Both the position numbers and the translations under genes were made by a program. Below are positions 37,960 to 39,459 of a DNA stretch of 64,000 bases, one piece after another (position 1 is the stretch's first letter; every line of letters begins with the position of its first letter). The stretch covers positions 1,683,030 to 1,747,029 of the forward strand of contig AP017308.1 of assembly GCA_001548435.1 (NCBI GenBank), written 5' to 3'. The stretch comes from Leptolyngbya sp. NIES-3755 (GTDB taxonomy: Bacteria; Cyanobacteriota; Cyanobacteriia; Leptolyngbyales; Leptolyngbyaceae). Under the pieces are notes generated by a model, which was given only the letters and a program-made list of their open reading frames with translations, had not been told where the DNA came from and made no database searches.

Positions 37960-38033
37960 ATTTGAAAAAAGACGAGGACTAATCCGCAGTAGAAACACTT
38001 CAATTGCATCAACTTCGTATCAGGTTTGCTTGA

Positions 38034-38074
38034 AAAAGCTGGAAAACTTCTCTGCATTATGTTTTCCAGCTTTT
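38034..38074 (-). terminator. Terminator of the XRE-ClpN gene
   Basis: A perfect 14-bp inverted repeat (38034-38047 with 38061-38074), AAAAGCTGGAAAAC against its complement, with a 13-base loop and a T-rich end on the minus strand. It lies 15 bases after the stop codon. Confidence 0.85.
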
Positions 38075-38088
38075 CGGCACTCATCAAA

Positions 38089-38778
38089 TTAAACCGCTTC
38101 TGCAAGTTGATTGCTCAAAGTTGCGATGTCAATTTCGTAGTGCTGAAATAGCTCACTCAAAACAGTTGTGTCTGTCTCAGCGAGTCGGACTAATCCCCAT
38201 AGAAGATGCTCAGTTCCGATCGTCTTTTTTCCCTGAAGCCGAACGACTTGCAAGGCAAGCTCCAGTACGAACTTGCTTTGTGAACTAAATTCCAGATGCT
38301 CACCCGACTCAAATGAGTGTTCATTAGTTTCAATTTCTGCCGTGACACCATTGGCACGAAGTAAACGGGCAGAAGTTGTTGCCGGATCAGCTAACAATCC
38401 AGCCAAGAGATGCTTGGGTTCAACCTGAGAACTATATGACCCTCCTCGATGCAGCGAAGCGGTTTGGGCTGCTTCATTACGAGCAAAACTAATTGCACGA
38501 ATCGCCTTTTCAGTGAAGCGCTCAAATCCAAATTCAAACCCGAAGAAATTTTTGACTCGTTCAACCAGTGTCTGCACAGAATTCTTTGCCTCGTAAATAA
38601 AAACGTCTTCGATCGCGACCTGAAACAGACTGGCAATTTTGAACGCCATATCAAGGCTGGGGTCAAACTTACCAGATTCAAACCCATTGACCGCTTGACG
38701 ACTCACTCCTAATTCTCTAGCGAGGTCGGACTGTGACCACTGATGCAGTTGTCGAAGTTCTTTCAGTCGGTTTTTCAT
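38089..38778 (-). CDS. XRE helix-turn-helix - ClpN double-repeat regulator
   Basis: A 229-residue fusion. Residues 1 to about 62 form an XRE/Cro-type helix-turn-helix (WSQSDLARELGVSRQAVNGF, ESGKFDPSLDMAFKIASLF). Residues about 84 to 229 look like a Clp N-terminal domain with two repeats (FTEKAIRAISFARNEA, VEPKHLLAGLLAD; then FVLELALQVVRLQGKK, IGTEHLLWGLVR). Clp_N domains normally recruit adaptors or substrates to ClpA/ClpC, so this protein may tie a promoter to protein quality control. Its own promoter holds two copies of a palindromic site, which suggests autoregulation. Confidence 0.85.
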   Translation of the reverse strand: MKNRLKELRQLHQWSQSDLARELGVSRQAVNGFESGKFDPSLDMAFKIASLFQVAIEDVFIYEAKNSVQTLVERVKNFFGFEFGFERFTEKAIRAISFARNEAAQTASLHRGGSYSSQVEPKHLLAGLLADPATTSARLLRANGVTAEIETNEHSFESGEHLEFSSQSKFVLELALQVVRLQGKKTIGTEHLLWGLVRLAETDTTVLSELFQHYEIDIATLSNQLAEAV

Positions 38779-38794
38779 CGGTTTGTCTGTCCGC

Positions 38795-38813
38795 TGTCAA
38801 GTATTACTTTACA
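38795..38813. promoter_or_regulatory. Operator copy 1 for the XRE-ClpN gene (degenerate)
   Basis: TGTCAAGTATTACTTTACA matches the perfect site at 38830-38848 in 15 of 19 positions. It starts 17 bases before the start codon, where bound repressor would block transcription or translation. Confidence 0.55.
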
Positions 38814-38829
38814 TAATTCTGAGGCGAAG

Positions 38830-38848
38830 TGTCAAGTGATGCTTGACA
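38830..38848. promoter_or_regulatory. Operator copy 2 for the XRE-ClpN gene (perfect palindrome)
   Basis: TGTCAAG - TGATG - CTTGACA, a perfect 7-bp inverted repeat with a 5-base spacer. Its centre is 35 bp from that of copy 1, between three and three and a half helical turns, as for paired dimer sites. Confidence 0.65.
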
Positions 38849-38864: not shown

Positions 38865-39350
38865 CTAATTCGGAACCCGATATCGACTGGCAATAAACGA
38901 GAAAAATCGGAAGTAGTTGCCAAACTGTGAACTCGGAGCCGTACCACGCCAGTAATATTCCACGCCTTTTTGGTCGATCGTTAACGTCATCGTGCTAGTT
39001 TGCGCCTCAACCTTCACCTCCAATCGCCCAGAAATTCCCTGCTCAGTCGTAAAGTTCGGCGTTGGTTTCGGTTGCTTATTTTGCTCCGGTCGCTTCAGTC
39101 TCGCCCAACTCCGAATCTCAAGTCCGTTATTTCTTGGATCACTAAACACAATGCCGTCCTGATTCTCTGGAGGAATCGAATCGACCCAGCCCTCCGGATA
39201 CAAAAACTCAAATCCAAATCGCGGATTCCGGTACGTTTGCCAGCGGTCAGGAAGCCTATCCTGCTGAGGTTCTGAGCGCTCCCAAGGCAACCTGTCACAC
39301 CCCGTCAATCCAATCAATCCCACTAAAATCCAACTCAAGCCGTGCTTCAT
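38865..39350 (-). CDS. Lipoprotein, unknown function (161 aa)
   Basis: The ATG at 39350 gives a 161-residue protein with a lipoprotein signal (MKHGLSWILVGLIGLTGCDR, Cys at residue 18) and a mature part with the pattern YRNPRFGFEFLYPEGW, common to PsbP-like or DUF-type secreted lipoproteins. The mature domain looks compact and beta-rich. Location: membrane-anchored in the periplasm. Partners unknown. Confidence 0.75.
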   Translation of the reverse strand: MKHGLSWILVGLIGLTGCDRLPWERSEPQQDRLPDRWQTYRNPRFGFEFLYPEGWVDSIPPENQDGIVFSDPRNNGLEIRSWARLKRPEQNKQPKPTPNFTTEQGISGRLEVKVEAQTSTMTLTIDQKGVEYYWRGTAPSSQFGNYFRFFSFIASRYRVPN

Positions 39351-39459
39351 AATGTAAATGATTGTAACAATAATGCTGTCATGCAGGCATACCGTCTTGA
39401 CAGCCCCGAATCTGGCAGATATTGTATTTGCATACCCGGGTAAAACGACTGAAAGTTCT

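Follow-up and report, generated by a model that had tools for sequence, protein, structure and literature searches.

A cyanobacterial XRE-ClpN fusion protein as a candidate self-repressing sensor of ClpC ligands

The mycobacterial protein ClpC2 represses its own gene via the palindrome CGTCAAC-n5-GTTGACG, as described by Taylor et al. (2023, PMC10030653), who report that in many actinobacteria the palindrome is repeated further upstream, with the sites overlapping the -35 and -10 boxes. The same work assigns the DNA contact to the ClpN arginines R185 and R189, and reports that cyclomarin, held by two Phe residues of ClpC2, hinders DNA binding, lifts the repression and is soaked up by ClpC2. 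A 2026 paper (PMC12913811) reports that ClpC2 is bound, yet not induced, by two other ClpC1 peptides, so that a bound ligand does not necessarily lift the repression. ClpN repeats are also found in ClpT, which associates with the ClpP ring according to a 2021 review that expects further ClpC adaptors to be found in photosynthetic bacteria (PMC7966870). Here we describe a gene of Leptolyngbya sp. NIES-3755 in which ClpN repeats are joined to an XRE DNA-binding domain, and compare it with these systems.

The XRE-ClpN gene and its promoter

The gene lies in a 64,000-nucleotide stretch of the Leptolyngbya genome, referred to below as the window. Its features are as follows.

38089..38778, minus strand: XRE-ClpN gene, 229 aa, ATG start, stop codon counted in the coordinates
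38593..38778, minus strand: XRE helix-turn-helix (HTH_3, CylR2-like), residues 1-62
38092..38526, minus strand: double ClpN domain (ClpC N-domain fold), residues 85-229
38033..38075, minus strand: terminator-like hairpin just 3' of the stop codon, 15-bp stem, 13-nt loop, T-run within the 3' arm
38795..38813, palindromic: proximal predicted operator, TGTAAAG-n5-CTTGACA on the gene strand, -35 to -17 of the start codon
38811-38806, minus strand: -10-like hexamer TAAAGT within the proximal predicted operator, 18-bp spacer to the -35 hexamer
38830..38848, palindromic: distal predicted operator, perfect TGTCAAG-n5-CTTGACA, -70 to -52 of the start codon
38835-38830, minus strand: -35 hexamer TTGACA within the distal predicted operator

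Residues 5-58 of the protein match HTH_3 (E 1.6e-15, 57.3 bits against a Pfam cut-off of 23), and Clp_N (PF02861) is matched in two stretches (E 5.6e-10, 39.7 bits against a cut-off of 20.7); at the nucleotide level the first ClpN repeat gave a weaker match to Clp_N (24.6 bits), above the cut-off. The AAA+ modules of the ClpC, ClpA and ClpB chaperones are absent from the Pfam matches. An AlphaFold2 model of the 229-aa protein, computed from an alignment of 38 relatives, had a mean pLDDT of 79.5. Its first 65 residues superposed on DR_2454 (9K3W; Z 13.2, rmsd 0.8, 62 aligned) and on CylR2 (Z 11.9, rmsd 1.3, 65 aligned), while residues from about 83 to 229 matched ClpC N-domains best (Z 16.3, rmsd 2.4, 126 aligned), with further matches to ClpT2 (Z 14.7), ClpT1 (Z 14.4) and ClpC2 (8AD9, Z 14.4). 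The linker between the HTH and the ClpN part is modelled at low confidence (pLDDT below 50 for residues 62-82), and the route by which a ligand signal might reach the HTH is not evident from the model.

The initial annotation, made from the letters of the window, had read this gene as an XRE domain joined to ClpN repeats and had placed two 19-bp sites, 35 bp apart and starting at 38795 and 38830, in the gene's own promoter, the second being a perfect TGTCAAG palindrome. The open reading frame and both domains were confirmed, the sites lie where it had placed them and are conserved in relatives, and the ClpN domain is genuine. That the C-terminal part is some other helical domain is contradicted by Pfam, Foldseek and the structure and profile comparisons, all of which point to a ClpN/ClpC N-domain, and we give that option practically no credence.

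The proximal site departs from TGTCAAG-n5-CTTGACA at one position, and the two sites start 35 bp apart. TTGACA-18-TAAAGT is the one promoter found on the gene strand by a consensus scan, which yields 1.4 by chance in shuffles; for this reason it is the conservation of the sites, rather than the scan, that bears the promoter argument. Loose matches to the palindrome are likewise not evidential: with at most three mismatches the window has 4 where shuffles have 3.14, and with at most two mismatches the whole genome (6.76 Mb) has 53 matches to the palindrome and 98 to a control pattern. The genome-wide total, being below that of the control, gives no hint of a larger set of weaker sites. With fewer than two mismatches, only the two promoter sites were found among the matches listed best first.

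Downstream of the gene, the hairpin has a folding energy of -21.8 kcal/mol (z -4.64), and none of 200 shuffles was equally stable; a consensus terminator scan with a loop limit of 8 omits it and has its only match on the gene strand inside the gene. A small ORF lies next upstream (38865-39365, minus strand) and matches PsbP below the threshold (E 0.0035). Elsewhere in the same genome, at about 6.057 Mb, lies a gene for a 304-aa double-ClpN protein in which Pfam recognises nothing else at E 0.01 (locus L004, 1009-1923, minus strand).

Relatives, operator conservation and targets

A search of genomes for XRE-ClpN fusions, proposed in the initial annotation, revealed a real family with at least 37 near full-length loci. 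Relatives were collected in one scan of the contigs of 84,980 species with two HTH peptides as query, the best 80 of 141 being kept; among these 80, 37 loci (L039-L075) match almost the whole protein and 36 of the 37 are labelled cyanobacteria. Given the two query peptides and the retention of 80 relatives, more XRE-ClpN fusions may exist beyond cyanobacteria. One full-length copy (L049), sister in the tree to a Chroococcus copy (L054), is on a contig labelled as a Tatlockia MAG, which is probably mis-binned. Reading frames are open in 35 of the 37 loci. The two broken copies are L056, in which a stop follows 13 codons and the predicted operator pair is retained, and L059 (also L012), which is broken by an internal TAG; a further copy, L076, is interrupted by N. 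In another 41 relatives (L078-L118), proteins of 62-67 aa, the match is confined to the HTH.

The XRE-ClpN gene is rare and patchy in the phylum: among 386 genomes sampled, the HTH was found at E 1e-9 in nine, seven of which carry a ClpN fusion, five of the short type (one broken) and two of a longer type with Uma2:

886-2094 of locus L014, minus strand: XRE-double ClpN-Uma2 protein, 402 aa
1501-2754 of locus L015, plus strand: XRE-double ClpN-Uma2 protein, 417 aa

This patchiness (7 of 386 genomes) and the broken copies, one among the seven and L056 in addition, suggest that the gene is dispensable. A prophage, plasmid or viral origin was also considered and rejected, as no relative spanning 80% of the protein was found in phages or plasmids and none matching the two peptide patterns used was found in viral contigs. 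Among the open-licence PMC papers listed by literature searches, and judged on titles and the openings of abstracts, none was recognised as dealing with an XRE-ClpN protein.

Upstream regions were compared for the window gene and L039-L077 (n = 40), leaving 39 once L059, with 2 nt upstream, had been set aside. Of these 39 regions, 38 retain the predicted operator pair; since the upstream sequences are related, these are not independent cases. Mismatches over both sites together number at most three in 37 regions and five, all in the distal site, in L076; at L054 the gene is open and the pair is absent upstream. Not one of 7800 mononucleotide shuffles had a pair with five or fewer mismatches. 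The sites mostly start 70 and 35 nt ahead of the start codon, with a pair spacing of 35 in 31 regions, 34 in six and 33 in one.

Across the 31 regions with spacing 35, the arms carry a mean of 1.83 and 1.85 bits per column against 0.51 in the intervening 16 bp. In the proximal site, position 4, for which the palindrome calls for C, is A in 97%, and position 8 is always T, a feature particular to this site; both fit a -10 box, TAnnnT, within the proximal site. T is also invariant at position 11, a base for which the -10 box does not account. Pair spacings of 35, 34 and 33 correspond to promoter spacers of 18, 17 and 16 bp, and spacers of 16-18 bp are the usual range. Two bound dimers would be expected to hide both the -35 and the -10 box.

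The HTH, rather than the ClpN part, likely reads the DNA. Residues 26-38 (SRQAVNGFESGKF) are identical in all 36 aligned short-type proteins, apart from V30 (34 of 36), and mean pairwise identity is 86% in the HTH against 67% in the ClpN part. A protein encoded in an Aphanocapsa MAG (L077, 6001-6717) retains the HTH (SRQSVNGFESGKY) with pentapeptide repeats in place of ClpN, and has a diverged operator pair upstream (three mismatches), so that the predicted operators go with the HTH. The short HTH-only relatives have recognition helices that differ from that of XRE-ClpN, and in upstream stretches of at most 200 nt a site with at most three mismatches was found for none of the 41, which is weak evidence as their genes may sit inside operons; with the same reservation, inheritance of the operator from such short XRE relatives was rejected. 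The retained pair at L077, the higher conservation of the HTH and the lack of sites in short relatives with other recognition helices together support the HTH as reader, and suggest that HTH and promoter may behave as a module with an exchangeable partner domain.

The survey of exact sites covered 26 carrier genomes, drawn from the 39 loci L039-L077. Such sites occur at 49 distinct places, and 43 of these are the own promoter of the XRE-ClpN gene, as checked by coordinates. The remaining six are stray sites in four genomes (two each in L050 and L068, one each in L051 and L071), against two matches of a control pattern in the same 26 genomes, and a few further targets are therefore possible. 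Three of the 26 genomes are without exact sites, their own-promoter sites carrying mismatches. Among the 386 phylum genomes, the tandem pattern (spacing 35, at most three mismatches) picked out just two, both of them short-type carriers. The remaining three of the five short-type carriers escape it, two because their spacing is 34 and one because its contig ends there.

No neighbouring gene is common to more than five of the 40 loci compared, several of which have short flanks. Clusters of neighbours span three to five loci only, some being close kin (the Scytonema and Fischerella groups), some large families, in scattered places; a partner gene was accordingly rejected for want of a widely common neighbour. 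At one locus of a Myxosarcina MAG (L013, 1486-3637, on the same contig as L074), the XRE-ClpN gene is directly downstream of clpB (ClpB model, E 1.6e-185 over 448 aa), with the predicted operators between. The scarcity of other sites, the absence of a common neighbour and the strong hairpin after the gene make it seem that the regulatory circuit consists mainly of the XRE-ClpN gene itself.

A candidate ligand sensor and its alternatives

The ligand groove of the ClpN part appears to be kept, best in the second repeat. T189-E190-H191-L192-L193 are invariant in all 36 short-type proteins. F85 and F164 are aligned with the cyclomarin-holding Phe pair of ClpC2; they are kept in 31 and 29 of the 36, respectively, and are otherwise replaced by L or I. 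In the first repeat, E122 is present in 32 of 36 proteins, but the window protein has Lys there; Glu residues of this kind read phospho-arginine in Bacillus ClpC.

The initial annotation had proposed a repressor with a level or activity governed by Clp adaptors or substrates. The XRE-ClpN fusion, the true ClpN fold and the paired operators in the gene's own promoter indicate that the protein is likely a self-repressor, and we consider autorepression of the gene very probable on these comparative grounds. That Clp adaptors or substrates might exert such control is plausible by analogy, since release by a ClpN ligand has a precedent in mycobacterial ClpC2 as described by Taylor et al. (PMC10030653). 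Because almost no sites occur elsewhere, the protein would probably act as its own effector, a sponge or decoy, rather than regulate other genes.

The best explanation, to which we incline with modest confidence, is a stand-alone autorepressor-sensor akin to ClpC2, the ClpN part being both sensor and effector. XRE domains would pair and occupy the two tandem 19-bp palindromes over the -35 and -10 boxes, and the occupied promoter would keep the level of the protein low. The ClpN part would serve as a copy of that part of ClpC which receives adaptors, substrates and inhibitors. Such a ligand, or unfolded client in excess, might then bind ClpN and lift the repression; the level of the protein would rise, and the additional copies of ClpN could soak up the ligand and spare ClpC. 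These latter steps follow the example of ClpC2 and the near absence of other sites, and we regard the chances of such a ligand-released sensor and sponge as evenly balanced. Candidate ligands are the cyanobacterial ClpC adaptors (ClpS1/2, NblA), unfolded proteins, and foreign attackers of ClpC such as a peptide or a phage protein; naming NblA or ClpS is a guess.

Other readings were weighed against this one. The protein could be a homeostatic autorepressor only, its ClpN part being a docking piece to the Clp machine that modulates Clp or delivers substrates, much as ClpT1/T2 sit on the ClpP ring (PMC7966870). Autoregulation by the HTH would by itself be enough for a constant dose, ClpT1 and ClpT2 match the model well (see their Z scores above), and the Aphanocapsa protein pairs HTH and operators with another partner domain; profile and structure nevertheless rank ClpC N-domains first, and we hold this reading to be unlikely. 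The conservation of the HTH relative to the ClpN part, the adjacency to clpB in the Myxosarcina MAG and the excess of stray exact sites over the control would suit a conventional transcription factor that senses Clp status and governs a wider regulon. Such a regulon is quite improbable, however, given that the Leptolyngbya genome has no further site with fewer than two mismatches among the matches listed, that no neighbour is widely common, and that the exact sites are for the most part own-promoter sites, a survey that sites much weaker than the consensus would escape.

The XRE domain might also be a repressor of antitoxin or prophage type, with the ClpN tail making the protein a Clp client whose level is set by degradation. 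Antitoxin models, RstR and HipB among them, gave matches below the cut-off, and the patchy distribution and changing neighbourhoods fit mobility. Yet the searches of phages, plasmids and viral contigs returned no relatives at the coverage and with the patterns given above, no partner gene is widely common, and ClpN domains receive ligands, none being known to us as a degron. We rate this option as very improbable.

Returning to the autorepressor-sensor, a wider proposal may be put forward tentatively, as possible rather than probable: cyanobacteria could have evolved, separately from actinobacterial ClpC2, an alarm for Clp ligands in which a portable self-repressing cassette of XRE domain and two operators is joined to ClpN (elsewhere to pentapeptide repeats or ClpN-Uma2), the attached domain acting as the sensor and also as the effector that is induced, in this case a sponge that guards ClpC from inhibitors, phage proteins or an excess of adaptors. 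If true, the principle of ClpC2, by which a copy of the ligand-binding domain of the protease represses its own gene until the ligand comes, would have arisen more than once, here in photosynthetic bacteria, and the gene could be used as both bait and reporter for ligands of cyanobacterial ClpC. The promoter with its two predicted operators would form a compact self-repressing switch that can be tested.

Comparison with known systems

The HTH resembles CylR2 and DR_2454 (PDB 1UTX, 9K3W) in its length of 62-66 residues, with 55% identity to DR_2454, but those are short stand-alone proteins. The plant proteins ClpT1 and ClpT2 share a double ClpN without an ATPase; to our knowledge they have no DNA-binding domain. 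The XRE-ClpN-Uma2 proteins have the same type of HTH, a double ClpN and, by eye, a single similar inverted repeat upstream (GTAAA...CTTGACA-like, spacer 4). They differ in the extra Uma2 and in a ClpN part that groups with cyanobacterial ClpC (0.758), outside the short-type clade (1.00), and are perhaps a further, separate fusion.

Cyanobacterial ClpC shares with XRE-ClpN the fold and groove of its N-domain and differs in its AAA+ modules, the ClpN part of XRE-ClpN being joined to an HTH instead. With a profile built from the ClpN parts of the 36 short-type proteins it scored highest (84 bits), ahead of plastid ClpC1 (77), ClpC2 (68, 62 and 49) and mycobacterial ClpC1 (64), the scores of the PDB pieces being depressed by their shorter length (114-121 aa against 146). 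Although the best match of the window protein alone among ClpN chains was ClpC2, a special kinship with ClpC2 was rejected in view of this ranking, with the same reservation about the PDB pieces. One FastTree run with 25 sequences (unrooted; L003, L007 and L175, three of ten loci considered, gave no ClpN start and were left out) set the short-type ClpN parts apart from all others (1.00), hence outside the group of the three ClpC2 sequences (0.965); the order of the rest was poorly supported, with 0.244 for ClpC1 plus cyanobacterial ClpC. At one ClpC locus of the phylum (L016, 1474-3636, genome G287), a separate 70-aa XRE gene lies just ahead of clpC in the same frame, an arrangement that gives a possible picture of how XRE-ClpN fusions could begin; by eye, no such XRE frame was seen at eight other ClpC-bearing loci of the phylum sample (L022, L028, L176-L179, L184 and L185).

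The closest parallel is ClpC2 (PDB 8AD9, 8ADA). Both are small proteins with a C-terminal domain like the ClpC N-domain and an N-terminal part that dimerises in ClpC2 and is predicted to do so in XRE-ClpN. Both have in their own promoters a 7-n5-7 palindrome with the common core GTCAA-n7-TTGAC, doubled over the -35 and -10 boxes here and in many ClpC2 members, a TTGAC core that also tends to be expected from any palindrome over a -35 box. They differ in the N-terminal part, a four-helix bundle in ClpC2 and a CylR2-like XRE HTH here; the absence of 8ADA, the ClpC2 bundle, from the matches listed (the best 50, 50 and 60 of longer lists) carries no weight. At the places of the DNA-contacting R185 and R189 of ClpC2, an ungapped alignment has Q177 and L181 in XRE-ClpN, so that the switch may differ in detail; R180, one place off a ClpC2 contact arginine, is kept in 30 of 36 short-type proteins. 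The two proteins belong to different phyla and their ClpN parts to separate clades, and it is best to regard them as two separate solutions of the same kind.
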